Source: Flavobacteriales bacterium UBA7519 (GTDB lineage Bacteria > Bacteroidota > Bacteroidia > Flavobacteriales > Weeksellaceae). From it: a stretch of 13,649 bases of DNA. The translations under genes were made by a program, and so were the position numbers. Below, one piece after another: positions 236 to 13,337 of the stretch. The stretch spans positions 1-13,649 of the forward strand of contig DLND01000193.1 in the NCBI GenBank assembly GCA_002476905.1, read 5' to 3'. The notes under the pieces were generated by a model. That model was not told where the DNA came from. It did not search any database and saw only the letters and a program-made list of their open reading frames with translations. Each line of letters begins with the position of its first letter. Position 1 is the first letter of the stretch.

Positions 236-262
236 TATTTCTAATTTTATCGTTTAGTTTTG
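232..262 (+). promoter_or_regulatory. Bacteroidota-type promoter for the GHL10 lipoprotein gene
   Basis: TTTG at 232-235 (-33 element) and TAGTTTTG at 255-262 (-7 element, consensus TAnnTTTG) are separated by 19 nt, within the spacing known for Bacteroidetes sigma-ABfr promoters. The -7 box ends 6 nt before the ATG at 269, so the transcript would start at or just before the start codon. The -33 element lies in the T-tract of the purU terminator. Confidence 0.7.
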
Positions 263-268
263 CAAACT

Positions 269-1834
269 ATGCGTTTCAGATTATCATTTTTCCAAATATT
301 ATTGCTGGCAGTTTTTGTGGTTTCTTGTGCAACAAAAACTAAGAAATCACCTTCAAAATCGGGTATTAAAAAACCTGTTGTAAAGACAGAAGTCAAACTT
401 CCACCAAAACCGGCTGTCAAATTAGATAATATCGATTTGCCTGAAATCAAAAGGGAATTCAGAGCGGTTTGGATTGCTTCTGTTGCTAATATCAATTGGC
501 CTTCGAGAAATAACCTTTCTGTTGACCAGCAAAAACAAGAAGCCATACAATTGTTGAATCTTCTTGTTGACCTTAATTTCAATGCAGTGATTTTGCAAGT
601 TCGTCCTTCCGCAGATGCTTTGTATAAAAGTCAGCACGAACCTTGGTCTTATTTTTTAACGGGACAAATTGGTCAAGCTCCTTATCCAGAATATGACCCT
701 TTGCAATTTTGGATTGAAGAATCTCACAAACGCGGTCTGGAATTTCACGCTTGGCTCAATCCGTTCCGTGCGCATCATTCCAATGGAGGTATCATTTCAT
801 CAGAATCTATGGTTAGAAAATCACCAGAAAATGTGGTGAGACTGAAAAACGGAATGTATTGGTTTGATCCTGCTGATGACAGAACTCAAGATCAAGCTTC
901 AAAAGTCATCAAAGACATCATTTCAAGATACGATGTGGATGGAATTCACCTCGATGATTATTTTTATCCTTACGCCGAATATAACGGTGGAAAAGATTTT
1001 CCGGATTACAAAACTTGGTCAGCTTACCAAAACTCTGGCGGAACACTTTCCAGAGCAGATTGGAGAAGAGCAAATGTCAACAAATTCGTGAAGCGAATCT
1101 ATGACGAAATCAAAGCTCAGAAAAATGATGTAAAATTTGGAATCAGTCCGTTTGGAATATGGAAACCCGGTTTTCCTTCTGGAATCAAAGGGTCTTCTCA
1201 GTACGATGAATTGTATGCTGATGCCAAACTTTGGCTGAACCAAGGCTGGATCGATTATTTTACGCCACAACTTTATTGGCCGATTGACCCAGCAGGTCAA
1301 AGCTTTCCACTCTTGTTGCAATGGTGGAACGATGAAAATATAAAAGGTCGCCATCTTTGGCCAGGTCTTAATACTGTTGCTGTAAAATCTTCGAATCCTG
1401 TTTCAGAAATTGCAAGAGAAATAGATGTTACAAGACAAATTGTAAAAAATAATACAGGCCAAGTGCATTGGAGCATAGCGGGAATCACTAAAAGTAAAGT
1501 AATGCAGGATGAACTGAAGCTAAACGTGTATAAAGATAAAGCCCTGATTCCTGAAACCAAATGGCTGTCTTCAAAAAATCTGCCGGAGTTGGATGTGACG
1601 TGGACAAAACAGCAAGGTCACTTTTTACTGAATTGGAATAAACAATCTGAAGCATTATCGTACGTGCTATATCTGAAATATGGCAATACTTGGCAGACAG
1701 AAATTCTTGCTCCAGAGCTGTTGTCCAAAAAGGTTCCTTCAGAATCTAATGGAAAAAAATTATCAACATTTGTAATAAGATCTCTGAATAGATTAGGAAA
1801 ACTGAATGATTATAAAGCTGTTATCGTGAATTAA
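269..1834 (+). CDS. Glycosyl hydrolase-like 10 (DUF187/YngK-type) lipoprotein
   Basis: This 521-aa protein starts with a lipoprotein signal peptide: a basic and hydrophobic stretch to residue 16, then VVSC with the lipid-bearing Cys20. The residues after Cys are basic (ATKTKK) and lack the acidic export signal of surface lipoproteins, so a periplasmic-facing location is inferred. Residues about 62-420 form the GHL10 TIM barrel, with REFRAVWIASVANINWPS (63-79), QVRPSADALY (110-119), AWLNPFRAH (161-169), DGIHLDDYFYPY (224-235) and ISPFGIW (292-298). The acidic DD at 229-230 is a candidate catalytic pair. A fibronectin-like C-terminal module covers about 437-521. GHL10 proteins are predicted to act on polysaccharide or peptidoglycan-derived glycans; the substrate here is unknown. 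ATG 269 was chosen over the upstream TTG at 260, which falls inside the -7 promoter box. Confidence 0.88.
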   Translation: MRFRLSFFQILLLAVFVVSCATKTKKSPSKSGIKKPVVKTEVKLPPKPAVKLDNIDLPEIKREFRAVWIASVANINWPSRNNLSVDQQKQEAIQLLNLLVDLNFNAVILQVRPSADALYKSQHEPWSYFLTGQIGQAPYPEYDPLQFWIEESHKRGLEFHAWLNPFRAHHSNGGIISSESMVRKSPENVVRLKNGMYWFDPADDRTQDQASKVIKDIISRYDVDGIHLDDYFYPYAEYNGGKDFPDYKTWSAYQNSGGTLSRADWRRANVNKFVKRIYDEIKAQKNDVKFGISPFGIWKPGFPSGIKGSSQYDELYADAKLWLNQGWIDYFTPQLYWPIDPAGQSFPLLLQWWNDENIKGRHLWPGLNTVAVKSSNPVSEIAREIDVTRQIVKNNTGQVHWSIAGITKSKVMQDELKLNVYKDKALIPETKWLSSKNLPELDVTWTKQQGHFLLNWNKQSEALSYVLYLKYGNTWQTEILAPELLSKKVPSESNGKKLSTFVIRSLNRLGKLNDYKAVIVN

Positions 1835-1900
1835 ATTAAACGTTCAATATTGTTTTATAATATTTTAAAATGTTTAAATTCGGAGAAATTATTTTCCGGC

Positions 1901-3004
1901 ATGAATATCAACAGAAGAGATTGGCTGAAAACCGCTTTTTTAGGAAGTGCTGCTTTGACACTTTCGCCATTAGAATTTTTGGCAAACGAAACTCCGAATT
2001 TCAATGAATTAAAAAACAGCAACGAAACAATTCGGCTTTGCTTTAACGAAAATCCGTTTGGAACTTCGCCCAAAGCTTTGGAAGCAATGCAGAAAAGTCT
2101 GAGTCTATCATCTAGGTATGATTTCAAATTGGCTGATGTTTTGTGTGAGAAAATTGCTGGAAATAATAATGTCAAAAAAGAGAATATTTTGGTTTCTGCG
2201 GGTTCGTCTTTTCTTTTGGAATTGATTACCAAATATGTGTCTCTCTACAAAGGTCACATCATTATTCCAGACCCATCATTCACGATATTCGCACCTATCG
2301 CTGAGTTTCTTGGAATGTCAAAATCGGTGATTGAGCTGAACGATAAAAAGAAAATCGATTTGGAAAAGATGAAAAGTTCGATCCAAAAAGACACGAAACT
2401 CATCTACATTTGCAACCCGAATAATCCAACCGGAGATTTGCTCTCAAGAGCGGAAATTGAGAATTTCATCAAATCAATTCCAGACAATATCATCATTTTG
2501 GTGGATGAAGCATACATCGAATTTACGACTCAAAAATCTCTAAGTGATTTGGTTGATATCTATAAAAACCTGATTGTCACGAGAACATTTTCCAAACTTT
2601 ATGGATTTGCCGGCGCAAGATTAGGTTATGCGATTGGACATCCGAAAATGATTGAAAACCTGAAGAAACTCCAGAGTTGGAGTGGTGCGGAAATCAGTGT
2701 TGTGACTATGGCTGGCGCAATTGCAGCTATGGATGACCAGGAATTTATTACCAAGGTTTTGGACAATAATAAGAAAGTAAAAGATTTTACGATTTCAGAA
2801 TTCAATATAAGAGGCATCAAAACCATTCCATCGTCTGCTAATTTTGTTTATTTCTCATTGGAAAATTACAAAGGCGATTACTTCAAAAAGTTGAAAGAAG
2901 CTAAAATTCTCGGCGGAAAAACGTATGAAGAAAAAGGAAAGTGGACGCGGATTAGTTTGGGAACGATGGAGGAGATGCGACAATACTTTGATGTGATTTC
3001 TTAA
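1901..3004 (+). CDS. HisC-like PLP-dependent aminotransferase with a Tat signal peptide
   Basis: This 367-aa class I/II fold-type I aminotransferase most resembles histidinol-phosphate aminotransferase. Visible landmarks are NENPFGTSP (49-57), NPNNPTG (172-178), DEAYIEF (202-208, Asp for the pyridine nitrogen), TFSKLYGFAGARLGY (229-243) with Lys232 as Schiff-base lysine and Arg240 contacting PLP phosphate, and TRISLG (349-354) with Arg350 as substrate-carboxylate arginine. The N-terminus is unusual: NRRDWLK at 4-10 followed by a hydrophobic segment to about residue 29 is a twin-arginine export signal, which suits a protein that folds around PLP before export. Cytoplasmic HisC lacks this, so a periplasmic role on an unknown amino donor is inferred. 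ATG 1901 puts the RR motif at residues 5-6; a TTG at 1850 would add 17 residues and is less likely. It lies 66 nt downstream of the lipoprotein gene and may be cotranscribed. Confidence 0.85.
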   Translation: MNINRRDWLKTAFLGSAALTLSPLEFLANETPNFNELKNSNETIRLCFNENPFGTSPKALEAMQKSLSLSSRYDFKLADVLCEKIAGNNNVKKENILVSAGSSFLLELITKYVSLYKGHIIIPDPSFTIFAPIAEFLGMSKSVIELNDKKKIDLEKMKSSIQKDTKLIYICNPNNPTGDLLSRAEIENFIKSIPDNIIILVDEAYIEFTTQKSLSDLVDIYKNLIVTRTFSKLYGFAGARLGYAIGHPKMIENLKKLQSWSGAEISVVTMAGAIAAMDDQEFITKVLDNNKKVKDFTISEFNIRGIKTIPSSANFVYFSLENYKGDYFKKLKEAKILGGKTYEEKGKWTRISLGTMEEMRQYFDVIS

Positions 3005-3008
3005 TCTG

Positions 3009-3881
3009 TCAAGCCAAAATATTACTAAACTCCTTCCGATATTGCGAAGGACTTTTCTGCGTATGTTCTTTAAAAGTTTTGTTGAAGTAACTGAAATTAT
3101 TAAATCCACTGTCAAAACAAACTTCTGTGATACTCATTGGTTGTTCTGCCAAGAGTTTTAGAGAATGCGTGATTCGATATTCATTCACAAATTGAGTAAA
3201 TGTTTTGTTTGTGATTTTCTTGAAATATCGGCAGAATGAAGGAACAGTCATATTGGATAATTCGGCGACAGTTTCCAAAGTAATTTGCTCCTTGAAATGG
3301 TCTTTCACATAATTGAAAATCACATTGATTCGGTCATTATCTTCTTTTTGGGTTTGCAGATAGTATTTTGAAGCGTTTAGGATTTTGTAATCTTGGGTTA
3401 GTGACATCTGATCCAGAACTTCAATCAGAAGAAGCAATTTGTTCAGAGAATGTGAATCCGTCAATGCATCAATTTTTGGTTTCAAAGCTTTTTTAAAATC
3501 TCCCCCGAAAACAATTCCACTTTTTGCTTTTTCCAGCAATGCAGAAATCCGGTTCATTTCTACAGCCTTCCAAAAATCCTGACCGAGAAATTCTTTTGAA
3601 AACTGAATCACCACTTCGTATTCGTTTTTGGTGTTCTCATTCGTCATTCCACAATGCGGAAGATTACTTCCGATAAGAATCAGATCGCCATCTGTAAAAT
3701 AAGAAATATTACTGCCTATTTGCCTTTTACCAGAACCTTTGTGAACAAATATAAGTTCAATCTCCGGATGATAATGCCAGAAATTGGACTTTATATTTTC
3801 ATCACGATGATATTTGAGACAAGTAAAACTGCTTCCCACATCAGGACTAACAGATTCTAAAACTGGATTATAATGTTTCAT
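3009..3881 (-). CDS. AraC-family transcriptional regulator with cupin sensor domain
   Basis: This 290-aa protein has the two-part layout of AraC-type activators. The N-terminal cupin-like domain includes FWHYHPEIELIFVHKG (34-49) and a GDLILIGSNLPH segment (65-76), typical of sugar-sensing or small-ligand-sensing regulators. The C-terminal domain (about 185-286) has two helix-turn-helices: TLETVAELSNMTVPSFCRYFKK (201-222) and SITEVCFDSGFNNFSYFNKTF (250-270), ending in SPSQYRKEF. The ligand and targets are not evident. It is convergent with the aminotransferase, with only 4 nt between stops and no hairpin, and divergent from the secreted-protein gene at 4047. ATG 3881 is taken as start; the TTG at 3899 lies upstream of the predicted promoter -7 box and would be untranscribed. 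Confidence 0.9.
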   Translation of the reverse strand: MKHYNPVLESVSPDVGSSFTCLKYHRDENIKSNFWHYHPEIELIFVHKGSGKRQIGSNISYFTDGDLILIGSNLPHCGMTNENTKNEYEVVIQFSKEFLGQDFWKAVEMNRISALLEKAKSGIVFGGDFKKALKPKIDALTDSHSLNKLLLLIEVLDQMSLTQDYKILNASKYYLQTQKEDNDRINVIFNYVKDHFKEQITLETVAELSNMTVPSFCRYFKKITNKTFTQFVNEYRITHSLKLLAEQPMSITEVCFDSGFNNFSYFNKTFKEHTQKSPSQYRKEFSNILA

Positions 3882-3885
3882 TGCA

Positions 3886-3893
3886 CAAAAATA
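3886..3893 (-). promoter_or_regulatory. -7 box TATTTTTG of the AraC-family gene
   Basis: On the minus strand TATTTTTG matches TAnnTTTG perfectly and ends 4 nt before ATG 3881, predicting a near-leaderless transcript. No TTG is found at the expected -33 distance, so the upstream element is weak or the gene depends on an activator. Confidence 0.5.
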
Positions 3894-3929
3894 AGACAAT
3901 ACAAATATATGTTTTATATTGCCTTAATT

Positions 3930-3947
3930 ACTAATTTAATATTTAGT
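3930..3947. promoter_or_regulatory. Possible operator dyad between the AraC-type gene and the secreted-protein gene
   Basis: ACTAA (3930-3934) and TTAGT (3943-3947) form an inverted pair 8 nt apart in the 165-nt divergent intergenic region. It lies upstream of both genes and could be an operator. The region is very AT-rich, so a chance match is quite possible. Apart from this and the two promoters I see nothing else in the interval. Confidence 0.2.
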
Positions 3948-4008
3948 TAATGTTAAAATAGTATATACTTCTGAAAATTCAATGCTATTAAAAGAGTTTA
4001 ATCCGCTA

Positions 4009-4016
4009 TAAATTTG
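4009..4016 (+). promoter_or_regulatory. -7 box TAAATTTG upstream of the secreted-protein gene
   Basis: TAAATTTG matches TAnnTTTG and lies 30 nt before ATG 4047, leaving a leader of roughly 25 nt. A TTA at 3988-3990 sits near the -33 position in place of TTG. Unlike several other genes here, this one has a conventional leader. Confidence 0.5.
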
Positions 4017-4046
4017 CTTCATCATTAATCAAGTAAATCAATAATT

Positions 4047-4643
4047 ATGAAAAATATATTAAAGTTATGTCTAATTGTGGGTGCATTATTTTTCACAATA
4101 AACATCTCAGCAAAAGATAGAGTCTTTTCAATATCGTTAGGGGAAGTTAATTCCAAAGTTTTAAAGTTTGAAGTAATGAATGCGGAGAACGTGTCGCTTT
4201 ATTTTTATAACAATAGAAAAGATGAAATCTATTCAGAAAATCTTGGCAACAGAGCTATTGTTGAGAAAACCTATGATCTTTCTACCCTTTCCACAGGCGA
4301 ATATTTTCTGGTAGCTGAATCGGAATTAAAAATAGAAAAATATAGAGTAACCATTGATAAAGATGGGAATGTGAAAGCAGATAAAACACCTATACTGGCA
4401 TTAAATAAACCTGAATATACGATTGAAAACAACATAGTAAAACTATATATGAACAATGTTGAAAACGGCGTTAATGTTTCCATTTCAGATTTAGCCAATA
4501 ATGAATATTACAACCAAACTGTTAATACAAAAAATGGTGAGATCAACCTTAAATTTGATTTCAATGCCAATAATTCTCCAGCCTATGTTATCAGCGTAAC
4601 AAAAGACGGCGATGTGTTTAACAAACTGATTACTTTGAAATAG
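4047..4643 (+). CDS. Secreted two-module beta-sandwich protein (sorting-domain-like), function unknown
   Basis: This 198-aa protein has a Sec signal peptide: MKN, a hydrophobic core at about 4-20, and likely cleavage after ISA (residue 22). The remainder splits into two similar modules of about 68 residues (38-105 and 130-198). Each runs from a V/I-K-hydrophobic strand through N-V-S-L or N-V-S-I and a tyrosine strand (GEYFLVA, AYVISVT) to a K-aromatic or K-L-I-T ending. The second module resembles the C-terminal sorting domain of type IX secretion substrates (Y-V-I-S-V-T-x-D-G then K-L-I), but no cargo domain is present. It could be a periplasmic or surface beta-sandwich protein. I cannot assign a function; it is not a recognisable enzyme. 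It is single-gene, flanked by its own promoter and strong terminators. Confidence 0.75.
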   Translation: MKNILKLCLIVGALFFTINISAKDRVFSISLGEVNSKVLKFEVMNAENVSLYFYNNRKDEIYSENLGNRAIVEKTYDLSTLSTGEYFLVAESELKIEKYRVTIDKDGNVKADKTPILALNKPEYTIENNIVKLYMNNVENGVNVSISDLANNEYYNQTVNTKNGEINLKFDFNANNSPAYVISVTKDGDVFNKLITLK

Positions 4644-4676
4644 TTTCTCTAAACTAAGGTTATATATTATTTTCTT

Positions 4677-4707
4677 AAAAGCTTCACATTGTGTGAAGCT
4701 TTTTTTG
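4677..4707 (+). terminator. Rho-independent terminator of the secreted-protein gene
   Basis: AAAAGCTTCACA (4677-4688) pairs perfectly with TGTGAAGCTTTT (4692-4703) around a 3-nt loop, followed by T4704-4707, giving an uninterrupted T-run from 4700. The A-run on the other side lets it work in both directions, so it may also serve the convergent poxB gene. Confidence 0.87.
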
Positions 4708-4719
4708 ATTATTCAATTT

Positions 4720-4747
4720 AAAATCCCAATTTAATATTGGGATTTTT
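4720..4747 (-). terminator. Terminator hairpin of poxB (second of a tandem pair)
   Basis: AAAATCCCAAT (4720-4730) pairs perfectly with ATTGGGATTTT (4736-4746) around a 5-nt loop, starting only 5 nt past the poxB stop. On the minus strand it is followed by TTTT then AAATT; on the plus strand by another T. The hairpin is likely bidirectional and backs up the neighbouring one. Confidence 0.72.
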
Positions 4748-4751
4748 GAGA

Positions 4752-6488
4752 TTATAAAACTTCTTTGATATGCTTATAATTGCTTGTAATAGTATCCGCA
4801 ACTTCTTTGAAATTACCATCCAGCATCATTCTTGTCATCGCAACGCCCATACCTTTTATCTGTTCCCAGCCAACTTTTGGTGGCATTGCCAGAGCGTTTG
4901 GATCGGTAAAAATATTGACCAAAACTGGACCAGCAATTGCTAATGCATCTTGAATTGCTATTTCTACTTTTTCCGGATCTGTAACATTGATGCCATTGAT
5001 GCCGAAAGCTTGAGCTAATAACCCAAAATCTGGATTAACCATATCAGTTTCGTTATCAGGAATACCGTTAACTTCCATTTCTAATTTTACCATTCCCAAA
5101 GATCTGTTGTTGAATACAATAATCTTGATGGGAAGATTATATTGTTTGATGGTCGCGATATCTCCCAACAACATAGAAAGTCCGCCATCACCACAAAGTG
5201 CAATCACTTGCTTATCCGGATTGGACAGCTGAGCACCAATAGCCATTGGCATGGCATTGGCCATAGTTCCGTGATTGAAAGATCCTAAGAGTTTTCTCTC
5301 TCCAGTAGCTTCTAGATATCTTGCGCCCCAAACACAACACATTCCTGTATCGACTGTGAAAATGGTATCTTTATTAGCCTTTAGGTTGATTGTTTCTGCT
5401 ACGAATTCGGGCGAGATATGGTTTTCTTTGCCTTTATCCTCAACATAAGATCTAAGATTATTTTTTACTTTTTGATAGAATTCTAGTTGCTTGTCAAGAA
5501 AATCTTGGTTATCATTGATTTTAATTAAAGGTAGAAGATTTATTAAAGAATCCTTTATTTTTCCAGCAAATCCTCTTTTCAATTGGGCTCGTCTTCCTAA
5601 ACGTTCTGGCTTATCATCAATTTGAATAATCACTTTATCAACAGGCATAAATTTGACATAAGGAAAATCGGTACCTAAAAGTAAAACAATATCTGCTTCG
5701 TGCATCGCTTTGAAGGCGGAAGGTAAACCCAAAAGTCCAGTCATTCCCACTTCATAAGGATTATTATATTGGATACCCATTTTTCCACGGAAAGAATATC
5801 CTATTGGTGCTTTCAGTTTTTCTGCTAAAGCAACAACTTCTGTGTGAGCTTCGGAAGCTCCTATTCCACAATAGATCGCTACTTTTTTTCCTGAATTAAG
5901 CTGATTTGCGATCCAGTTTATTTCTTCTTCTGAAGGAATGATTCTAGGATTTGTTTTGAATACGAGATCAGAACTAATATTTTTTTCAGATTTGACCTCA
6001 AAAAGATCACCCGGAACACCTAAAACCGAAACGCCTTTTTGTGATATCGCATGTTGTAAAGCAGCTTGTAACATTCTTGGAGCTTGTTCTGGTGTATTGG
6101 CTACCTGATTGTAAACAGAGCAGTCATCAAACAATTTGATGGTATTAGTTTCCTGAAAATAAGAGGTACCAAACTCAGAACTCTCGCAAGTTGATGCTAT
6201 GGCAAGAACTGGAACATTCCCTCTATTAGCTTCGTAAAGACCATTAATGAGATGAACGTGACCAGGACCAGAACTTCCTGCGCAGACAGCCAAACCTTCT
6301 AGCTCAGCTTCGGCAGCCGCCGCAAAAGCACCGACTTCCTCATGTCTTACGTGGATCCATTGGATAGAACCATCACGTTTTATAGCATCATTTAAAAAAT
6401 TAAGGCTGTCTCCAGTGACAGCATATATACGTTTAATTCCTGCTTTTACAAGAATCTCTACAAATTGTTCGGCAATATTTTTTGACAT
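4752..6488 (-). CDS. poxB: Pyruvate:ubiquinone/menaquinone oxidoreductase (pyruvate dehydrogenase, quinone)
   Basis: This 578-aa protein is a full-length TPP-dependent enzyme closely resembling E. coli PoxB. The N-terminal Pyr domain has VTGDSLNFLNDA (24-35), RHEEVGAFAA (48-57) with the conserved Glu50 that activates TPP, and CAGSSGPGHVHLINGL (69-84). The central FAD-binding domain (about 180-345) includes GMTGLLG (248-254) and LLGTDFPY (270-277). The C-terminal PP domain has LGSFNHGTMANAMP (401-414) and the TPP/Mg motif GDG (433-435) to NN (460-461). The last about 25 residues align with the lipid-binding amphipathic C-terminal peptide of E. coli PoxB. The reaction converts pyruvate to acetate and CO2 with electrons passed to membrane quinone; in this lineage that would be menaquinone. 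Acetolactate synthase is less likely given these matches. It is downstream of the glycosyltransferase gene, with its own 83-nt leader region. Confidence 0.93.
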   Translation of the reverse strand: MSKNIAEQFVEILVKAGIKRIYAVTGDSLNFLNDAIKRDGSIQWIHVRHEEVGAFAAAAEAELEGLAVCAGSSGPGHVHLINGLYEANRGNVPVLAIASTCESSEFGTSYFQETNTIKLFDDCSVYNQVANTPEQAPRMLQAALQHAISQKGVSVLGVPGDLFEVKSEKNISSDLVFKTNPRIIPSEEEINWIANQLNSGKKVAIYCGIGASEAHTEVVALAEKLKAPIGYSFRGKMGIQYNNPYEVGMTGLLGLPSAFKAMHEADIVLLLGTDFPYVKFMPVDKVIIQIDDKPERLGRRAQLKRGFAGKIKDSLINLLPLIKINDNQDFLDKQLEFYQKVKNNLRSYVEDKGKENHISPEFVAETINLKANKDTIFTVDTGMCCVWGARYLEATGERKLLGSFNHGTMANAMPMAIGAQLSNPDKQVIALCGDGGLSMLLGDIATIKQYNLPIKIIVFNNRSLGMVKLEMEVNGIPDNETDMVNPDFGLLAQAFGINGINVTDPEKVEIAIQDALAIAGPVLVNIFTDPNALAMPPKVGWEQIKGMGVAMTRMMLDGNFKEVADTITSNYKHIKEVL

Positions 6489-6541
6489 AGTTTTATGAAT
6501 TTTATAATATCATAATTTACAAAAAATATTCCAAGCAAATG

Positions 6542-6553
6542 ATTATTAATAAT
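6542..6553. repeat. 12-bp AT palindrome upstream of poxB
   Basis: ATTATTAATAAT is a perfect palindrome in the 83-nt gap between the glycosyltransferase stop and the poxB start. It could be a regulator half-site pair or a weak hairpin, but it contains no G or C. The same gap holds TATTTTTTG on the minus strand (6528-6520), a -7-like box with one extra base. Confidence 0.25.
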
Positions 6554-6571: not shown

Positions 6572-7570
6572 TCAATGAAAATGCTTCGGAAAAGCTTCTC
6601 TTGGCGTTTGTTTCAGAATATTGAGCATAAACCAAGATTTAAGAAAACCGTAACCGTATGAAAACATTTGGATGTAGGTAGAAATTATCGCCATCGCGGC
6701 AATGCTGATATTTTTTGTAACGATCAAAGCGTGCAAGAAAACTAGAAATGTATAAAGTCCATACAATGCGAGAATCAAACCATTTCCCCATACGAAATAA
6801 TGAATAACTCCAACCACATAACCCAACAGAAAAAGGCTCGGAAACCAAAACGTAGGTTTCACATATTTTGGATGTCTTTGATTAAGGATTGGTCTTGCAC
6901 AACCGAATTGATACACTTGTTTTGAGAATTTGCCAAAGTCTGTTCTACGTTTGTGATAAACGCCAATATTATCATAGAATAATGTTGTGTAGCCATTTTC
7001 CCAAAATGTCATCGACAAATCTGGGTCTTCACCAATTCTCATTTCAGAAAACCCACCTATGCTCAAGAATTTCTCCTTATTCACGCCCATATTGAAACTT
7101 CTTGGCTGAAATTTAGTCACTGCTTTTTTACTTCCTCGGATTCCACCGGTTGTGAAAACTGAAGTCATAGAATAAGAAATGGCTTTCTGCATCAGATTGA
7201 AACCTCTATGCGCTTTGTCTGCGCCTCCGAAAGCATCGCAAGGTTTTTCGGTGAGGTTTTTCTTGATATTCTCGATGTAATCTGTTTCTACAATCACGTC
7301 AGAATCTACAAAAACCAGCCATTCATTTTTTGCTCGTTTTGCACCATAATTTCGGCTCAATCCAGGACCGGAATTGTCTTTTCGGAAGAATTTAATATCG
7401 AGTTGATTTTCAAATAATTCAACAGTTGGGAGAAGCGTCATCTTGGAGCCATCATCTACAATTATTACTTCAAAATCCTTGTCAGTTTGATGTGACAGAG
7501 AATTTAGAAGCTCGAATAATTCGTCTTTTCTATTGAAGATGGCGATGATGATGGAGATTGTTGGATTCAA
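6572..7570 (-). CDS. Membrane-associated family 2 glycosyltransferase
   Basis: This 332-aa protein has an N-terminal GT-A domain: ISIIIAIFNRKDEL (5-18), VIIVDDGS (35-42) for nucleotide binding, GPGLSRNYGAKRAKNEWLVF (68-87), and the metal-binding DSD at 89-91. Further on are FNMGVNKEKF (159-168) and GEDPDLSM (180-187), whose ED is the likely catalytic acidic pair, then an HKRR patch (206-209). About 240-315 holds two to three hydrophobic segments, so the protein is probably anchored in the inner membrane. It would transfer a sugar from a nucleotide donor to a lipid or surface-polysaccharide acceptor; neither is identifiable. The start is TTG 7570: no ATG precedes the IIIAIFN strand before an in-frame stop, and the next ATG (codon 44) would remove the DDG motif. 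It lies 17 nt after the 37-aa ORF, consistent with one operon. Confidence 0.88.
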   Translation of the reverse strand: MNPTISIIIAIFNRKDELFELLNSLSHQTDKDFEVIIVDDGSKMTLLPTVELFENQLDIKFFRKDNSGPGLSRNYGAKRAKNEWLVFVDSDVIVETDYIENIKKNLTEKPCDAFGGADKAHRGFNLMQKAISYSMTSVFTTGGIRGSKKAVTKFQPRSFNMGVNKEKFLSIGGFSEMRIGEDPDLSMTFWENGYTTLFYDNIGVYHKRRTDFGKFSKQVYQFGCARPILNQRHPKYVKPTFWFPSLFLLGYVVGVIHYFVWGNGLILALYGLYTFLVFLHALIVTKNISIAAMAIISTYIQMFSYGYGFLKSWFMLNILKQTPREAFPKHFH

Positions 7571-7587
7571 TTTTATAATTTAATAAT

Positions 7588-7701
7588 TTATTTCAAATTT
7601 TTGAAATGTTCTCTCGCTTCTTTGTTATTATTCTTTTTTCCATTTCCATTTGAAAAAAGATTGAAAAACTCAAAAATTAATTCGATGAGATTACCGATCA
7701 T
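7588..7701 (-). CDS. Small protein (37 aa), translationally coupled, function unknown
   Basis: This short ORF begins with ATG at 7701-7699, overlapping the TGA stop (7700-7698) of the RlmL-like gene as ATGA. Its stop is 17 nt before the TTG of the glycosyltransferase. The product has a hydrophobic N-terminal helix with acidic residues on one face (IGNLIELIFEFFNLF, 2-16), an Asn/Gly/Lys-rich linker (18-26) and a basic tail (KEAREHFKNLK). The N-terminal helix could be amphipathic and membrane-associated. I do not recognise a family. The overlap, the operon position and the filling of an otherwise empty 127-nt gap support a real gene. Against it is the chance that a 37-codon ORF arises at random in AT-rich DNA. 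Confidence 0.6.
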   Translation of the reverse strand: MIGNLIELIFEFFNLFSNGNGKKNNNKEAREHFKNLK

Positions 7702-8858
7702 TCTTTAATTTTATGAAGTTTCTTTGTCCCGTCATACATTTCATACTGCAAAAATCTCGTCTCCAGTTTCCCATTGAATAATTTGATTTTTCTGGAAGGT
7801 CTCAATCCAATTTTCTTCGGAGCGTCCAAGTCTGCAGAAATCAACCAAGCCAAAGTATTGGGATAATGTTGTTTGAAAGTATCACCAATTTTTTTGTAGA
7901 AATCATCATCATTAATAGAAATTCTCTCATCATAAGGCGGATTGAACACTATTAATAAAGGGAACATATCTTTTTCTGAATCAAAGAAATTTTGTTTTCT
8001 TACTTCGATGACATCTTCCATTTCTGCAGATTCAATATTCGCTCTTGCTGCATCCAAGGCACTATAATCGATGTCGTAACCAACAATCTTTCCTGTGAAT
8101 TCCTTCACACGGTTCAGTCGTACTTCTTTTATGGTTTTGAATAATTCAGAATCATAGTTTTTCCAATTTTGGAAAGCAAAATTTCTTCTGAAAGTCTGCG
8201 CCGGCAAATCCATTGCAATCATCGCCGCTTCGATAAGCAAAGTTCCAGAACCGCACATTGGGTCTAGGAAATTCCCTTTTCCGTCCCAACCTGCCAATTG
8301 TAACATTCCGCTAGCTAAAACTTCATTGATTGGCGCGACAGTTTGTTCCTTTCTGTAACCACGTTTGAAAAGTGGGTCTCCAGAACTATCAAGAGAAATC
8401 GAAACTAATTCTCGGTCGATATGAAGATGGAATTTGATATCCGGATTGTCTTTACTAATGTTCGGTCTTACCTTATGTTTTTCCTGAAAATAATCTACAA
8501 TCGCATCTTTCATTTTCAAAGTCATAAACTGCGAGTGACTGAATCTCTCAGAGTTTACAGTGGCATCAATAGAAAAAGTCTGGTTTGGTTCCAAAAACTG
8601 ATCCCACTCAAACTTGTATAATTTATCGTAATATTTCGTTTCGTTAAAAGCTTTAAACTCCATTATCGGAACCAAAATTTTAACCGCTGTTCTGCAAGAG
8701 TAATTGAGTTTATAAAGAAAACCAAGGTCGCCTTCACAAGTTACTGCGCGGTTTTTAACTTCCACATTTTTACCACCCAATTTCTTAACTTCCTCAGCCA
8801 AAACCTGTTCTAATCCAAAGAAAGTTTTGATTTGTATTTGCAGATTATCTGTATTCAT
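7698..8858 (-). CDS. rlmL: THUMP-domain class I SAM-dependent RNA methyltransferase (RlmL-type)
   Basis: This 386-aa protein has an N-terminal ferredoxin-like plus THUMP region (about 1-155), starting with KTFFGLEQVLAEEVKKLGG (11-29), a typical RlmL/YpsC opening. The linker carries PLFKRGYRKEQ (162-172). The Rossmann methyltransferase domain has DPMCGSGTLLIEAA (199-212) for SAM binding, GYDID (260-264), and NPPYDER (306-312), the catalytic N-P-P-Y motif of amino-group methyltransferases. By homology it makes m2G in 23S rRNA (position 2445 in E. coli). Its length matches the stand-alone N-terminal half of E. coli RlmKL; the RlmK half is absent. The symbol reflects family resemblance, not a proven site. 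ATG 8858 is chosen because it lies 4 nt after a -7 box; the upstream TTG at 8900 would place that box inside the coding sequence. Confidence 0.88.
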   Translation of the reverse strand: MNTDNLQIQIKTFFGLEQVLAEEVKKLGGKNVEVKNRAVTCEGDLGFLYKLNYSCRTAVKILVPIMEFKAFNETKYYDKLYKFEWDQFLEPNQTFSIDATVNSERFSHSQFMTLKMKDAIVDYFQEKHKVRPNISKDNPDIKFHLHIDRELVSISLDSSGDPLFKRGYRKEQTVAPINEVLASGMLQLAGWDGKGNFLDPMCGSGTLLIEAAMIAMDLPAQTFRRNFAFQNWKNYDSELFKTIKEVRLNRVKEFTGKIVGYDIDYSALDAARANIESAEMEDVIEVRKQNFFDSEKDMFPLLIVFNPPYDERISINDDDFYKKIGDTFKQHYPNTLAWLISADLDAPKKIGLRPSRKIKLFNGKLETRFLQYEMYDGTKKLHKIKE

Positions 8859-8862
8859 AGCG

Positions 8863-8870
8863 CAAAGATA
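8863..8870 (-). promoter_or_regulatory. -7 box TATCTTTG of the rlmL-type gene
   Basis: TATCTTTG on the minus strand matches TAnnTTTG and ends 4 nt before ATG 8858, again predicting a leaderless or near-leaderless mRNA. No well-spaced TTG is visible; the nearest is about 27 nt upstream. Confidence 0.5.
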
Positions 8871-8937
8871 ATAGATTATTAGATGATAGATAAAAGACAA
8901 ATGAAAATCCTTTAAAATCTATTGTCTATAATCTATT
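8870..8937. repeat. Inverted repeat in the divergent rlmL/methyltransferase promoter region
   Basis: AATAGATTAT (8870-8879) and its exact inverse ATAATCTATT (8928-8937) sit 48 nt apart in the 110-nt region between the two divergent genes. The left arm abuts the rlmL-type -7 box; the right arm is 19 nt before the other -7 box. Each arm reads ATAATCTATT toward its gene, which could be a shared regulator site. Confidence 0.35.
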
Positions 8938-8956
8938 CGTCTCGCATCTTTTTTCA

Positions 8957-8964
8957 TAATTTTG
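8957..8964 (+). promoter_or_regulatory. -7 box TAATTTTG of the SAM methyltransferase gene
   Basis: TAATTTTG matches TAnnTTTG and ends 4 nt before ATG 8969. Only a TTCG at 8936-8939 is near the -33 position, so the upstream element is imperfect. The transcript would start within a few bases of the start codon. Confidence 0.55.
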
Positions 8965-8968
8965 TAGG

Positions 8969-9694
8969 ATGCAATGGTTCGAAGAATGGTTTGATACACC
9001 ATATTATCATATTCTTTATAAAAATCACGATTACAAAGAAGCAGAAGATTTTCTGAATCTTTTAACCGATTACGTGAAACTTGAGAAAAATTCAAAAATA
9101 ATTGATTTAGCATGCGGAAAAGGCAGACATTCTGTTTACCTAAACAAATTGGGTTATGATGTTTTAGGATTAGATTTATCTGAGCAAAGTATCCGTTTTG
9201 ATAAGCAATTTGAGACAGAAACTTTGAAGTTTCAAGTTCACGATATGCGAAATAAAATAGAAAGTGAGCCAGTAGATGCGGTTTTCAATCTGTTTACAAG
9301 TTTTGGATATTTTGAAACTGAGGAAGAGGACAGAAGTGTTTTCCAGTCTGTTTCCGATGTTTTGAAGGATGAAGGTTATTTCGTTTTAGATTTTCTGAAT
9401 TCTGATTATGTGAAAAATAGCATCGTTCCAAAAACTTCCATCGAAAGAGAAAATATTACCTTTAATATTCAAAAACATATTGAGAATAATTTTATTATCA
9501 AAGAAATAGATTTTGAAGACCAAGGCAAAAAGTTTCATTTTTTCGAACGTGTAAAACTGACTTCTCCAGAGAAAATTCTGAAATTTGCACAAGAATTTGG
9601 TTTTGAATTAATCCAGCGTTGGGGCGATTATCAACTGAACGACTTTGATGAAAAGACTTCTCAGAGATGTATTAATTTATTCAAAAAGAAATAA
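8969..9694 (+). CDS. Class I SAM-dependent methyltransferase
   Basis: This 241-aa protein has a 7-strand Rossmann methyltransferase core. Motif I is IIDLACGKGRHSVYL (44-58), motif II ends in GLDLS (67-71) with acidic Asp69 for the SAM ribose, HDM (91-93) fits motif III, and DAVFNLFTSFGYF (103-115) fits motif IV. The C-terminal part has beta-strands compatible with a substrate-binding cap. The N-terminus MQWFEEWFDTPYYHILY is aromatic-rich and supports ATG 8969 as start. The substrate is not evident; small molecules or quinone-like compounds are typical of this broad group. It heads a rightward cluster; the metal-transporter gene begins 25 nt after its stop. Confidence 0.87.
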   Translation: MQWFEEWFDTPYYHILYKNHDYKEAEDFLNLLTDYVKLEKNSKIIDLACGKGRHSVYLNKLGYDVLGLDLSEQSIRFDKQFETETLKFQVHDMRNKIESEPVDAVFNLFTSFGYFETEEEDRSVFQSVSDVLKDEGYFVLDFLNSDYVKNSIVPKTSIERENITFNIQKHIENNFIIKEIDFEDQGKKFHFFERVKLTSPEKILKFAQEFGFELIQRWGDYQLNDFDEKTSQRCINLFKKK

Positions 9695-9719
9695 TTAAAA
9701 CAAAAGAACTAGGTTTTAA

Positions 9720-10412
9720 ATGATAATTATTCTATTAATTTTTAGTGTTCTGATTGGCGTTTTTCTCGGAAAATATTTTGGGAGCAAACAACAATTCGCC
9801 AAAAATCTTCTCATTCTAAGCGCCGGTTTCCTGATAACGATTTGCTTGAATGAAGTTTTTCCAGAAGTTTATCATTCCGAAGACCATAATATTGGGATTT
9901 TCGTGATTCTTGGTGTTTTGATTCAGATGTTATTGGAAAGTTTGACCAAAGGTTTTGAACACGGACATCTTCATCACCATTCGGATGAGCATTCTATCAT
10001 TCCGGTTGCGTTGATTATTGGACTATTTGTTCACGCTTTTATAGAAGGAATTCCTTTGTCACACGAGAAAGAAACTTTGTCGCCTTATCTTCTGGGGATT
10101 TTATTTCATAACATTCCGATTTCATTTGTTTTGGGAAGTTTCTTGGCACATAGCAAAAATTTTACAACCAAATTCTGGTTCATTGTTTTGGTATTTTCAT
10201 TAGCTTCACCTTTGGGAATGCTTCTCGGTAAATACTTTGACGAAAATCTTAAAGTTTATTTTCTTGCAATTGTCGGCGGAATTTTCCTTCATATTTCGTC
10301 CGTAATTATTTTTGAAAGTAATAAGAATCACAAGATGGACTGGCAAAAAATTATTCTAGTCATTTGCGGAGTTGTCTTGGCTTTAGGCGGACATTTGTTT
10401 CATCATCATTAA
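9720..10412 (+). CDS. ZIP-family divalent metal transporter
   Basis: This 230-aa inner-membrane protein has about seven to eight hydrophobic segments (about 1-18, 28-47, 58-74, 92-110, 121-142, 150-170, 177-198, 209-226). A His-rich cytoplasmic-loop stretch, EHGHLHHHSDEH (80-91), lies before the TM4 motif HAFIEGIPLS (105-114), the ZIP H-x3-E-G signature. TM5 has LFHNIPISF (128-136), corresponding to the HEIP.E motif but lacking both glutamates, so only part of the usual binuclear site is present. The C-terminus is again His-rich (GGHLFHHH). The family takes up Zn, Fe or Mn; which metal applies here is unknown. It is cotranscribed with the preceding methyltransferase (25-nt gap) but has no obvious functional link to it. 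Confidence 0.85.
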   Translation: MIIILLIFSVLIGVFLGKYFGSKQQFAKNLLILSAGFLITICLNEVFPEVYHSEDHNIGIFVILGVLIQMLLESLTKGFEHGHLHHHSDEHSIIPVALIIGLFVHAFIEGIPLSHEKETLSPYLLGILFHNIPISFVLGSFLAHSKNFTTKFWFIVLVFSLASPLGMLLGKYFDENLKVYFLAIVGGIFLHISSVIIFESNKNHKMDWQKIILVICGVVLALGGHLFHHH

Positions 10413-10468
10413 TTAAAAAATATTTTTTATTTCGATAGGAAAATCATAATTTTACTCAAATCAATTTT

Positions 10469-10843
10469 ATGGGATTTTTAAATCAATTATTTGGTAAAAA
10501 AGAAGAGCAGGACCAGACAAAAAGTCTTTGGAAGAAAATTGAATCTGAAAAAGATTTGGACTCGGCTGTTGAGAAATCTTATCAGCAAAAAGTCTTGATT
10601 TTCAAACATTCTACGCGTTGTTTCATCAGCAAAACGGTTTTGAAAAACTTTGAAAAGCAAATGCAGAATTCTGATAAAGATTATGCTTATTATTTTTTGG
10701 ATTTGTTAGCCCACAGAAACTTATCAAACGAAATAGAATCCCGTTTTGACGTTGTTCATCAAAGTCCACAGCTTATTGTTCTGGAAAATGGAAAAGCTAC
10801 ACGCAACGCATCTCATCAAAGTATCGATTTGGATACAGTTTAA
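10469..10843 (+). CDS. ytxJ: Monothiol bacilliredoxin BrxC/YtxJ (bacillithiol system)
   Basis: This 124-aa thioredoxin-fold protein carries the YtxJ active-site region FKHSTRCFISKTVLKNFE (45-62), with the single Cys51 in place of the TCPIS cysteine of the Bacillus protein. A cis-proline segment HQSPQLIVLENG (97-108) follows, and residues 109-124 match the end of the family. It removes bacillithiol from mixed disulphides on cytoplasmic proteins, implying that this organism makes bacillithiol. The N-terminal helix (MGFLNQLFGKK) is typical. A TAATTTTA at 10447-10454, off-consensus in the last base, may be its promoter -7 box 14 nt before the ATG. The next gene, a Crp/Fnr regulator, starts 42 nt downstream. 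Confidence 0.87.
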   Translation: MGFLNQLFGKKEEQDQTKSLWKKIESEKDLDSAVEKSYQQKVLIFKHSTRCFISKTVLKNFEKQMQNSDKDYAYYFLDLLAHRNLSNEIESRFDVVHQSPQLIVLENGKATRNASHQSIDLDTV

Positions 10844-10850
10844 TTAAGGG

Positions 10851-10865
10851 AGTTAGAATTTAACT
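10851..10865. promoter_or_regulatory. Candidate operator dyad upstream of the Crp/Fnr-type gene
   Basis: AGTTA (10851-10855) and TAACT (10861-10865) are perfect inverted half-sites with a 5-nt spacer, 20 nt before ATG 10886. Crp/Fnr proteins bind dyads of this size, so autoregulation is possible. The half-site is neither the Crp TGTGA nor the Fnr TTGAT sequence. Confidence 0.3.
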
Positions 10866-10885
10866 TCAAAAAGTGAAAAACATTT

Positions 10886-11479
10886 ATGATTCATCAAAAC
10901 TTTAGCAATCATCTTTCGCAGATCTTAAGCGTTCCCATTAGCAGTATAGAATTTTGTTCTTCTTTTTATGAAGTGAAAGAAGTTAAAAAAAATGAAATTA
11001 TCCTAAGAGAAGGCGAGATTTCAGATTCTACATTCTTTGTTGAAAAAGGTTTGCTGAGAATGTATTCTATCGATAAAGTGGGTAAAGAGCACGTGATACA
11101 GTTTGCGCCAGAAGGTTGGATTATTTCCGATACAACCATTCAATTACTGAATGAAAAATCGAGATTTTATATAGAAGCTATTGAAGAAAGTACAATTATA
11201 ATTGTAAGAGATGGTTTTTTTGAACATCTTACCAAAGAATATCCTGAAGTTGCTGAGAAAAATCAAAGATTGATGTTCAATCACATCAAAAATCTTCAAA
11301 ACAGAGTCAATTCATTGATTAGCACAACTGCAGAAGAACGTTATCTTGATTTCCTGAATAAGTACCCAAATCTAATGCTTCGTACACCACAATGGATGGT
11401 AGCTTCTTATCTTGGAATCACGCCCGAAAGCTTGAGCAGAGTTAGAAAAGAGTTGGCTAAAAAGAAATTTGAGATTTAA
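10886..11479 (+). CDS. Crp/Fnr-family transcriptional regulator
   Basis: This 197-aa protein has a cyclic-nucleotide-binding-type beta-roll (about 30-115) containing EIILREGEISDSTFFVEKGLLRMY (37-60), then a long dimer helix (about 116-147) and a C-terminal winged helix-turn-helix, WMVASYLGITPESLSRVRKEL (170-190). The usual cAMP phosphate-binding segment (G-E-L then R-x-A or R-x-S) is not recognisable at about 80-95, so binding of cAMP is unlikely. No N-terminal cysteine cluster typical of Fnr exists; C24 is the sole Cys in the first half. Family members in Bacteroidetes sense varied small signals. The nuclease gene begins 4 nt after its stop, and the bacilliredoxin gene ends 42 nt before it, which hints at redox or stress control but does not prove it. 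Confidence 0.9.
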   Translation: MIHQNFSNHLSQILSVPISSIEFCSSFYEVKEVKKNEIILREGEISDSTFFVEKGLLRMYSIDKVGKEHVIQFAPEGWIISDTTIQLLNEKSRFYIEAIEESTIIIVRDGFFEHLTKEYPEVAEKNQRLMFNHIKNLQNRVNSLISTTAEERYLDFLNKYPNLMLRTPQWMVASYLGITPESLSRVRKELAKKKFEI

Positions 11480-11483
11480 TATT

Positions 11484-11984
11484 TTGAATAAATTCTTAGT
11501 CTTAATTTTATTTTCGATTTTCAGTTTTGGGCAAAGTCAATTACAGGAAAACCTTAGTCATAAAACATTTTCAGCAAAAGTCATTGGTATTTCTGATGGC
11601 GATACGATGGAGATTCTTTATGAGGAAAATCCAATTAAAATTCGTCTTGCTCACATAGATTCGCCGGAGAAAAGAGGAACTCAGCCTTTTGGTAATAACG
11701 CCAAACAAGCTCTATCCAATCTTTGTTTTGGAAGAATTGTCACCGTTCAAGCAGAGAAATATGACCGATATAAACGGTTGATTGCGGTTGTTATCAATGA
11801 TAAAAATCAAAACATTAATAAACAAATGCTAAAGCAAGGAATGGCTTGGCATTATAAAAAATACTCTACCGATTCCGACTACGCCAAACTGGAAACCGAA
11901 GCTCGAAAAAATAGAGTAGGACTTTGGCAAGATAACAATCCAATTGCGCCTTGGCTCTGGAGAGAAAATAAAAAGAAAAAATGA
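11484..11984 (+). CDS. Secreted staphylococcal-nuclease-like endonuclease (thermonuclease)
   Basis: This 166-aa protein has a signal peptide (MNKFLVLILFSIFSFGQS, likely cut after FG or QS) followed by a single SNase OB-fold domain. Active-site counterparts are visible: SDGDT (37-41) for calcium, IRLAHIDSPEK (53-63) with Arg54 and Glu62, and DRYKRLIA (94-101) with Arg98 as the second catalytic arginine. The enzyme cleaves DNA and RNA, probably in the periplasm or medium. The start is a TTG: TTG 11484 gives a classic signal peptide four bases after the regulator stop, while TTG 11469 would overlap that gene by 11 nt and add MRFNI. No ATG is available. The stop TGA overlaps the ATG of the acetyltransferase as ATGA. 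Confidence 0.86.
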   Translation: MNKFLVLILFSIFSFGQSQLQENLSHKTFSAKVIGISDGDTMEILYEENPIKIRLAHIDSPEKRGTQPFGNNAKQALSNLCFGRIVTVQAEKYDRYKRLIAVVINDKNQNINKQMLKQGMAWHYKKYSTDSDYAKLETEARKNRVGLWQDNNPIAPWLWRENKKKK

Positions 11985-12427
11985 ATCACGAAATTTTAAA
12001 AGCAAACCTCTCCGACATCCCTGAATTATGCGAAATGATGAAGGATTTTTATGCGATTGATTTATATCCTTTTGATGAAAAAGAGGCTGCTGCTAATTTT
12101 GTAAAATTCCTTGATAATGATAGTTATGGTAATTGTTTTAAAGTAGTATTTGAAGGGAGAATTGCAGGTTATATTATTTTGGTTAAATATTTCAGTTTTG
12201 AATTTGGTGGTGAGATTTTGTTCTTGGATGAATTATTTATAAAACCAGAATTTCAGGGTAAATCTCTTGGTAAAAAAGCATTGGAATTTGTGAAAGATTA
12301 TTCTGTTGAAAATAATTTTAAAATTGTCTTATTGGAAATAGAAAATCATAATGAAAAAGCTAAAAAACTTTACGAAAATTATGGATTCCAAAATCATAAA
12401 AGGAGTTTGATGATTCTTAAAAATTGA
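11981..12427 (+). CDS. GNAT-family N-acetyltransferase
   Basis: This 148-aa single-domain protein has the GNAT fold. Residues 1-70 give the first strand and helices (ILKANLSDIPELCEMMKDF, 5-23). LDELFIKPEFQGKSLGKKAL (82-101) is motif A, with Q-G-K-x-L-G-K-K as the acetyl-CoA pyrophosphate loop. LLEIENHNEKAKKLYENYGF (117-136) is motif B, with Tyr131 as a possible general acid. The substrate cannot be told. Its ATG overlaps the nuclease TGA by 4 nt, suggesting translational coupling at the end of the operon. The next gene is convergent, with 8 nt between the stops and no terminator visible. Confidence 0.88.
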   Translation: MNHEILKANLSDIPELCEMMKDFYAIDLYPFDEKEAAANFVKFLDNDSYGNCFKVVFEGRIAGYIILVKYFSFEFGGEILFLDELFIKPEFQGKSLGKKALEFVKDYSVENNFKIVLLEIENHNEKAKKLYENYGFQNHKRSLMILKN

Positions 12428-12435
12428 TAACAAAT

Positions 12436-12708
12436 CTAAAATTTTAATTGATCTGTTTTACAGTACCATTTTGGGTCACACCCCATAAGTTCACAACCTC
12501 CAAAATAAAATTTATTTTTGTTTTTTTTCATAAATTTTCCAGGTGCTAAACCATAAAAAATAGGTAACACCTTTTTGTCACCTTTACATTTAGGACATAT
12601 TGAACTTTTGTTTTCTCGATAACCACAGTTGATGGTATCATTAATTTTTTTCTGTGAGAAATAATTTAATGATGCTAATAAAAACGATAAAAACACAATT
12701 TTGCTCAT
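12436..12708 (-). CDS. Small exported Cys-rich (zinc-ribbon-like) protein
   Basis: This 90-aa protein has a signal peptide (MSK, hydrophobic 5-15, FSQ at 17-19), then CPKCKGD (38-44), YGLAPGKF (52-59), GGC (70-72) and CDPKWYC (77-83). The order CPxC, YGL, GGC, PKWYC follows a widespread family of small putative zinc-ribbon proteins whose usual ending is WYC..CG. Here the last cysteine pair is incomplete: after WYC comes KTDQLKF, and extra cysteines are at 28 and 77. The gene starts 3 nt past the HAD gene stop, so they form an operon. ATG 12708 was preferred to the preceding TTG. Function is unknown. Export of such a protein is unusual, since metal-binding ribbons are normally cytoplasmic; disulphides could replace the metal site. 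Confidence 0.72.
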   Translation of the reverse strand: MSKIVFLSFLLASLNYFSQKKINDTINCGYRENKSSICPKCKGDKKVLPIFYGLAPGKFMKKNKNKFYFGGCELMGCDPKWYCKTDQLKF

Positions 12709-12711
12709 CAA

Positions 12712-13323
12712 TTAAAAAATAAGATTAAAATTTCTTAATTCTGCTCCAAGATCCGTTTCTGGCTGTATGTGTACGGTTTTAAAACCCAGGTTCTTTGCAG
12801 TAGCAATGTTCTTCACATTATCATCTATAAATACAGACTCTTCAGATTTTAAATTATAACGATTGAGCAACACTTCGAAAATCTCCTTGTCCGGTTTGAT
12901 TAACTTTTCTGTTCCAGAAACAACAATTTTTCCTTCAAAAACTTGGAAAAAATCATAGTTTTCCAAAGCAAATGGAAAGGTTTCCTCAGACCAATTGGTC
13001 AATCCATAAAGATGATATTTACCTTCTAACTTTCTTAATACGTCTACATTTTTAGGAATATCACTTTTCAGCATCACTGTCCAGTTATCATAGTAAGCAC
13101 GGATTTCTTTTTCCCACTCCGGGTGTTGCATAACTAATAATTCCGTACCTTCTTTCAGCGTTCGCCCACGGTCTTGTTCTATATTCCATTCATCTTTGGC
13201 TATGTTTTTTAAGAACCATTCCATCTTTTGATCATCATTGAAATAGGTTCTGAAAAAATATCTGGGATCCCAATCCATTAATACGCCGCCAAAATCGAAA
13301 ACTATATTTTTTATCATTATCAT
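12712..13323 (-). CDS. HAD-superfamily hydrolase (HAD-IA type phosphatase)
   Basis: This 203-aa protein contains the four HAD motifs: VFDFGGVL (8-15) with nucleophile Asp10; GLTNW (107-111) with Thr109; LIKPDKEIF (141-149) with Lys143; and VFIDDNVKNI (164-173) with Asp167-168. A helical cap lies between about 17 and 90. In motif I the second Asp (DxDxT) is replaced by Gly (DFGGV), as in YihX-like sugar-phosphatases and haloacid dehalogenase relatives. A cytoplasmic small phosphatase is likely but the substrate is unknown. Start: ATG 13323 lies 6 nt after a -7 box; ATG 13317 is an alternative. The TTG 13332 falls within the -7 box and is rejected. The Cys-rich protein gene follows 3 nt after its stop. 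Confidence 0.88.
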   Translation of the reverse strand: MIMIKNIVFDFGGVLMDWDPRYFFRTYFNDDQKMEWFLKNIAKDEWNIEQDRGRTLKEGTELLVMQHPEWEKEIRAYYDNWTVMLKSDIPKNVDVLRKLEGKYHLYGLTNWSEETFPFALENYDFFQVFEGKIVVSGTEKLIKPDKEIFEVLLNRYNLKSEESVFIDDNVKNIATAKNLGFKTVHIQPETDLGAELRNFNLIF

Positions 13324-13329
13324 TTTTTT

Positions 13330-13337
13330 CAAAAATA
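13330..13337 (-). promoter_or_regulatory. -7 box TATTTTTG of the HAD gene
   Basis: TATTTTTG on the minus strand matches TAnnTTTG and ends 6 nt before ATG 13323. It is continuous with the T-tract of the upstream terminator. No TTG stands at the -33 position, so promoter strength is uncertain and readthrough from upstream may contribute. Confidence 0.5.

Follow-up and report, generated by a model that had tools for sequence, protein, structure and literature searches.

Promoter boxes exactly four nucleotides before ATG point to conserved, predicted leaderless genes in Epilithonimonas and its relatives

Leaderless messenger RNAs (mRNAs) are already known in Bacteroidota as a minority class. In Flavobacterium psychrophilum, 5.5% of 890 genes are leaderless (PMC9723704), leaders of 10 nt or less occur in 13% of the F. 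johnsoniae genes with a probable promoter (PMC6847099), and about 3.7% of the 5′ untranslated regions mapped by differential RNA sequencing (dRNA-seq) in Bacteroides thetaiotaomicron are shorter than 10 nt (PMC7366714). The Actinobacteria/Deinococcus-Thermus survey, based on Pribnow-like boxes, reported leaderless genes in one of 37 Bacteroidetes/Chlorobi genomes, while noting that such genes may be undercounted by its method in Bacteroidetes (PMC3160421). Among the literature matches listed, in part the best 15 of 818, 20 of 75 and 10 of 12, there was no 5′-end map for Epilithonimonas or Chryseobacterium. Here we describe a 13,649-nt stretch (contig DLND01000193.1 of Flavobacteriales bacterium UBA7519, assembly GCA_002476905.1), referred to in full as the window, in which several genes carry the Bacteroidota −7 promoter box TAnnTTTG just before their ATG. 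Judged by sequence, the window is Epilithonimonas near E. hominis; in a protein scan, the closest match to its methyltransferase (ATG at 8969) was that of E. hominis, with 95% identity.

The −7 consensus of F. johnsoniae is TAHHTTTG, with G almost never seen at the third position, and transcription starts 4 or 5 nt past the box (PMC6847099); in both F. johnsoniae and F. psychrophilum the box occupies −12 to −5 (PMC6847099, PMC9723704). Defining the gap as the number of nucleotides between the box and the start codon, this published position would place +1 on the A of ATG when the gap is 4. The sequence-only reading of the window had grouped five boxes as perfect −7 elements of five leaderless mRNAs. 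Their letters, coordinates and gaps are all correct, but the boxes do not form one set: those at 3893, 8870, 8957 and 13337 fit TAHHTTTG, the one at 255 has the disfavoured G, and only the genes starting at 3881, 8858 and 8969 retain a leaderless prediction, since gene 269 is near-leaderless at best and the ATG at 13323 drops out.

For the boxes at 3893, 8870 and 8957 we consider it likely, with a probability of roughly 0.85, that they are sigma-A −7 elements with +1 on the A of ATG and that the three mRNAs are leaderless. The sigma-A (sigma-ABfr type) element would lie so near the gene that the mRNA starts 5′-AUG, and the ribosome would take this 5′-terminal AUG without a leader. TAnnTTTG occurs 19 times on both strands of the window; at this rate, 0.033 boxes would be expected at gaps 4-6 before its starts (taken as 16, a rough estimate), and the probability of at least three at gap 4 is about 2e-7. 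All counts beyond the window come from the DNA of relatives only.

The best supported case is the box TAATTTTG (8957..8964, forward strand), at gap 4 from ATG 8969, whose A is the predicted +1 of a gene for an S-adenosylmethionine-dependent methyltransferase (8969..9694, forward; Pfam Methyltransf_31/25). Orthologs of this gene were collected from 47 loci of Epilithonimonas, Chryseobacterium and related entries, with 61-95% protein identity to the query. The upstream comparison used for genes 8969, 3881 and 4047 covered ten of the 16 window genes, with hits beginning at query residue 4 or earlier and hisC omitted. The gap was 4 in 48 of 48 sequences (47 loci plus the window), among which 45 distinct upstream sequences were present, and all six fixed letters of the box were invariant, compared to a mean column conservation of 0.53 between −60 and −13. 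The ATG at 8969 is close to certain as the true start on sequence grounds, because the TAA within the box supplies a stop codon in frame at −12, and no further ATG, GTG or TTG follows in frame until codon 36.

Divergent from this gene lies an RlmL/THUMP rRNA methyltransferase-like gene (7698..8858, reverse strand; Pfam UPF0020, THUMP, RlmL_1st), predicted to be leaderless, with its box TATCTTTG at 8863..8870 (reverse) and gap 4 to ATG 8858. The two ATGs are 110 nt apart, the next in-frame start codon of the RlmL-like gene is a TTG at codon 20, and one in-frame TTG is found upstream, at −42. As one locus (L042) contains the methyltransferase only, 46 loci plus the window were compared, and the gap was 4 in 34 of the 47 sequences. 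The remaining 13 (L020, L022, L023, L027, L030-L034, L036, L038, L041 and L047) carry no gap-4 box, and all of them have TAAATTTG 113-115 nt upstream (180 and 234 nt in two of them), two bases from the box of the opposite-strand methyltransferase gene, which itself remains at gap 4 in all 13; L023 has an additional rlmL box at gap 56. These back-to-back boxes look like a two-way promoter, from which one mRNA would be leaderless while the other would carry a leader of about 110 nt or longer, so that a switch between leaderless and leadered forms is predicted among rlmL orthologs. The idea that the orthologs lacking the gap-4 box lie inside operons proved wrong, the gene being divergent from the methyltransferase gene in 47 of 47 cases (46 loci plus the window).

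Where the box is present, 8858 thus retains the exact spacing, as 8969 does throughout, whereas it drifts in the leadered gene 4047, the contrast case of the sequence-only reading. The box of the latter, TAAATTTG at 4009..4016 (forward), lies at gap 30 from ATG 4047 as in an ordinary leadered promoter and was found in 14 of 14 sequences (13 loci plus the window) at gaps ranging from 28 to 32.

The third gene encodes an AraC-family regulator (3009..3881, reverse; Pfam HTH_18, HTH_AraC), for which a leaderless mRNA is predicted and a second promoter, giving a leader, is possible. Its box TATTTTTG (3886..3893, reverse) stands at gap 4 from ATG 3881, and a second box, TATATTTG (3902..3909, reverse), at gap 20 may serve as an alternative leadered promoter; this gap-20 box is present in the window and missing from the E. 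hominis locus (L001). Among the orthologs (13 loci plus the window) the gap was 4 in eight of 14, 16 in three and 51 in one, with no box in two, one of which has TACCTTTA at gap 4. When L007, L008 and L010 are set beside positions 3881-3909 of the window, the AraC box is seen at gap 4 or 16. Orthologs of this gene may possibly switch between a leaderless form and a 12-nt leader. Among the three predictions, conservation supports the methyltransferase gene 8969 most strongly and AraC 3881 least.

Box-to-ATG gaps were counted in 1.78 Mb comprising 1438 genes from five genomes (G001, G003, G004, G269 and G270), a gene being an open frame of at least 100 codons and its candidate starts every in-frame ATG leaving 80% of the frame; the G002 stretches (L082-L087) were excluded. 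The counts for gaps 0 to 8 were 2, 0, 1, 2, 25, 7, 2, 7 and 3, those for gaps 9 to 13 were 3, 1, 4, 6 and 3, and a broad mode with 7 to 21 boxes per gap followed at gaps 14-30. Against a background of 2.9 per gap (mean over gaps 0-3 and 7-12), the 25 boxes at gap 4 are strongly in excess (P about 1e-15), with 12, 2, 5, 5 and 1 of them in G001, G003, G004, G269 and G270, respectively. Of the sharp excess that had been anticipated at gaps 4-6, that at gap 4 is clear, gap 5 is marginal (7 boxes, P 0.03) and gap 6 shows none. The proposed general mode of initiation likewise holds only as a minority mode, with 25 pairs at gap 4 compared to 245 at gaps 14-35 in the 1438 genes, which agrees with the 5.5% and 13% reported for F. 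psychrophilum and F. johnsoniae. When 29 permuted motifs were ranked in three of the five pooled genomes (G001, G003 and G004), the real motif gave 16 boxes at gaps 4-6 in G001 and 7 in G004, compared to maxima of 4 and 2 for the permuted ones. The 25 gap-4 genes include, judging their N-termini by eye, housekeeping genes such as DnaG-like, DnaX-like, ferredoxin and tRNA-dihydrouridine synthase genes.

Leaderless initiation strongly prefers AUG. At gene starts, ATG was found at gap 4 25 times versus 2.25 expected and TTG not at all versus 1.8 expected; the enrichment of ATG there far exceeds that of any other codon, leaving room for some use of GTG. The sequences around the gap-4 boxes resemble those of leadered promoters, unlike boxes inside genes: the upstream A+T fraction was 0.74 for gap-4 boxes, 0.75 for leadered promoters and 0.63 for intragenic boxes, and a C directly followed the box in 48%, 37% and 20% of the cases. 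A −33 TTG gave no clear peak in either the leaderless or the leadered promoter set of the clade, and the −33 element is weak in F. johnsoniae too (PMC6847099). Only 7 of 42 gap-4 genes followed a co-directional gene at a distance of 40 nt or less, compared to 524 of 1526 box-less genes (P 0.02), in a test that pools Epilithonimonas/Chryseobacterium with two genomes from elsewhere in the phylum (G120 and G046, see below) and omits four gap-4 and 105 box-less genes at contig edges, with no upstream neighbour in the stretch; in Epilithonimonas/Chryseobacterium alone the difference is not significant (4/24 versus 348/1092, P 0.13). At the level of the clade, this looks like a minority yet well conserved way to start genes, in which two modes would coexist: mRNAs with no leader at all (or perhaps 1 nt), and mRNAs whose leader is at least about 10 nt long and rich in A ahead of the start.

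The remaining two boxes of the window behave differently. The box TAGTTTTG (255..262, forward), with its disfavoured third-position G, lies at gap 6 from ATG 269 of a GHL10 lipoprotein-like gene (269..1834, forward; Pfam GHL10, lipoprotein judged by eye from the N-terminus), and the predicted leader is about 2 nt, making the gene a near-leaderless relative at best. In the genus genomes, an ortholog was present in 20 of 23, and gap 6 was found in 15 of 21 sequences (14 of 20 loci plus the window), the box lacking in six loci at 58-59% identity. A terminator-like hairpin at 202-237 ends just ahead of the 269 box and parts the gene from the preceding one. The box at 13330..13337 (reverse; again TATTTTTG), at gap 6 from ATG 13323, was rejected as a leaderless promoter. 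It precedes a HAD-family hydrolase gene (12712..13317, reverse; Pfam Hydrolase/HAD_2) that most likely begins at ATG 13317, as suggested by ortholog starts: of the orthologs, present in 8 of 23 genomes, none has an ATG at the 13323 position, four start at the 13317 position and four one codon further upstream. The box was found in one of the eight, there at gap 12, and a terminator-like hairpin (13368-13343) sits immediately before it in the window. Altogether, nine terminator-like hairpins were counted in the window versus 7.5 expected in shuffles.

The spread of the gap-4 arrangement was followed in 247 Bacteroidota genomes with the pattern TAHHTTTG-N4-ATG, counting any ATG rather than gene starts only. 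Gap 7 (N7), which preserves the reading frame, served as the single control gap, because a raw comparison with gaps 3 and 6 is partly a reading-frame effect; reading the pattern backwards had also been tried as a control and was discarded for its too low background. In total, 9410 matches were found at gap 4 and 6481 at gap 7. Gap 4 was higher than gap 7 in 181 genomes and lower in 51, with a tie in 15; 47 of 244 genomes passed a 5% false discovery rate. At gene starts, G120 (GC 0.50) had 13 gap-4 boxes in 313 genes and G046 had 8 in 215, two genomes chosen for their high whole-genome counts, which show that the class exists elsewhere and not its average frequency; a 90-kb sample of G050 (48 genes) contained one. 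Across the whole of G120, 8 GTG and TTG codons together stood at gap 4 compared to 61 ATG, and such raw counts are informative in this genome, but not in Epilithonimonas. In G120, G046, G050, G149 and G141, gap-4 boxes were 2.6 to 6.3 times as frequent as gap-7 boxes, and these may possibly be lineages with heavy leaderless use.

Regarding the ribosome, a first search recovered the 16S 3′ tail in 10 of 32 genomes, and in six relatives (G001, G003, G004, G017, G100 and G215) the tail reads CATCTCA in place of CACCTCC, so that the CCTCC used for Shine-Dalgarno initiation is missing from the 16S tails of these six. Loss of the anti-Shine-Dalgarno sequence has been published for Chryseobacterium, Elizabethkingia and Riemerella (PMC6107228). 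Over the phylum, CCTCC was present in 73 of 247 genomes and altered in four, while no tail was found in 170. The ratio of gap-4 to gap-7 counts, uncorrected for kinship, was 2.18 with an altered tail (4 genomes), 1.17 with the tail ATCACCTCC (38 genomes), and 1.63, 1.68 and 1.69 with AAC-ACCTCC (21), AAT-ACCTCC (10) and ATT-ACCTCC (4 genomes). An association between leaderless share and anti-Shine-Dalgarno loss is seen, confounded with kinship. A broader proposal, tentative and somewhat unlikely in our view, is that Weeksellaceae, having lost the anti-Shine-Dalgarno sequence, possess leaderless initiation as a fixed second mode, with leaders of 2-9 nt thinly used and genes switching between exactly leaderless and long-leader forms in evolution, and that the leaderless share in Bacteroidota rises as Shine-Dalgarno capacity is lost. 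Against it stand the raised gap 6 in G120 (5) and G046 (3), and the strong gap-4 excess in G050 and G123, which keep CCTCC.

From the boxes, their exact spacing and conservation, the gap-4 excess, the preference for ATG and the promoter-like flanks we infer both a transcription start at the A and the mode of ribosome loading, and the AUG would very probably form the 5′ end of gap-4 messages. Several observations weigh against this. Should transcription start 5 nt past the box, the AUG of a gap-4 mRNA would be missing its A. Gap-4 boxes are few in E. xixisoli (G003), with two in 366 genes, and in G270, with one in 141; GTG (3 versus 0.74) and AGA (5 versus 1.34) are also somewhat raised at gene starts; and the lower A-content just before the start in leaderless compared to leadered genes is not significant (P 0.15). 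In the raw counts, no more than 17 of 32 hand-picked genomes have gap 4 ahead of both gap 3 and gap 6, and GTG plus TTG about equal ATG at gap 4 in three Epilithonimonas genomes (82/86 in G001, 112/106 and 94/85). Furthermore, within Epilithonimonas/Chryseobacterium, 4 of 24 gap-4 boxes lie close behind a co-directional gene compared to 7 of 221 leadered ones (P 0.015), and because they are commoner there some gap-4 boxes may be chance occurrences. Chance matches in AT-rich DNA, with the true promoters further upstream, would fit the unconserved 13337 box behind its terminator-like T-tract, perhaps some singletons of the gene sample, and the result in G003, where permuted motifs match the real one at gaps 4-6 and two of the 29 beat it (4 versus 3). 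As a general account this is very unlikely, given the same spacing in 48/48 and 34/47 orthologs, the 25 boxes against 2.9, a peak that persists at 50% GC, and permuted motifs far below the real one in G001 and G004; this alternative, already raised in the sequence-only reading, is a poor fit for the three gap-4 genes in view of ortholog conservation, which is weakest for AraC.

A little less likely still is that TAnnTTTG near ATG is no promoter and serves translation instead, as a signal in mRNAs that have a leader. In its favour, Bacteroidota are described as relying on upstream sequence and not on Shine-Dalgarno pairing (PMC6847099), and a few gap-4 genes do follow closely after a co-directional gene. 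The known signal, however, is rich in A and does not read TTTG, an identical octamer, similarly flanked, also occurs at 14-35 nt, the gap matches the published distance between box and transcription start, and gap-4 genes tend to have no co-directional gene closely ahead of them. A third possibility, unlikely as a general account though compatible with leaderless starts at the gap-4 boxes, is that these are combined with an upstream leadered promoter in a condition-dependent manner. AraC 3881, with boxes at gaps 20 and 4 and orthologs at gap 4 (8/14) or 16 (3/14), would fit and could even use the gap-20 box instead, a further point against a leaderless start in this gene, while 8858 and 8969 have only the gap-4 box within 60 nt in the window, in an inter-ATG stretch of 110 nt.

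If the gap-4 messages are leaderless, a box exactly 4 nt before ATG suggests a DNA-only rule for predicting leaderless genes in Bacteroidota, and the orthologs named here are genes in which the rule held across dozens of species. G120, G046 and the rlmL ortholog group would allow the same gene to be compared with and without a leader, with a view to how ribosomes recognise starts in a clade lacking the normal anti-Shine-Dalgarno sequence.

Compared with the described systems, and as far as the available portions of those papers go, the Flavobacterium cases are alike in phylum, in the −7 box, in having the AUG at the very 5′ end or directly beside it and in being a minority class. They rest on RNA data, whereas the present genes are predicted from box spacing and conservation, and the 16S tails recovered in Epilithonimonas/Chryseobacterium have lost CCTCC. 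B. thetaiotaomicron likewise has rare leaderless or nearly leaderless mRNAs, but these concern Bacteroides and were mapped by dRNA-seq without an analysis of spacing or conservation. In Actinobacteria and Deinococcus-Thermus, as here, a promoter box just before the start codon marks leaderless genes, although that survey sought Pribnow-like boxes. To these systems the present analysis adds the exact spacing, its deep conservation, the predicted leaderless/leadered switch of rlmL and the variation across the phylum.

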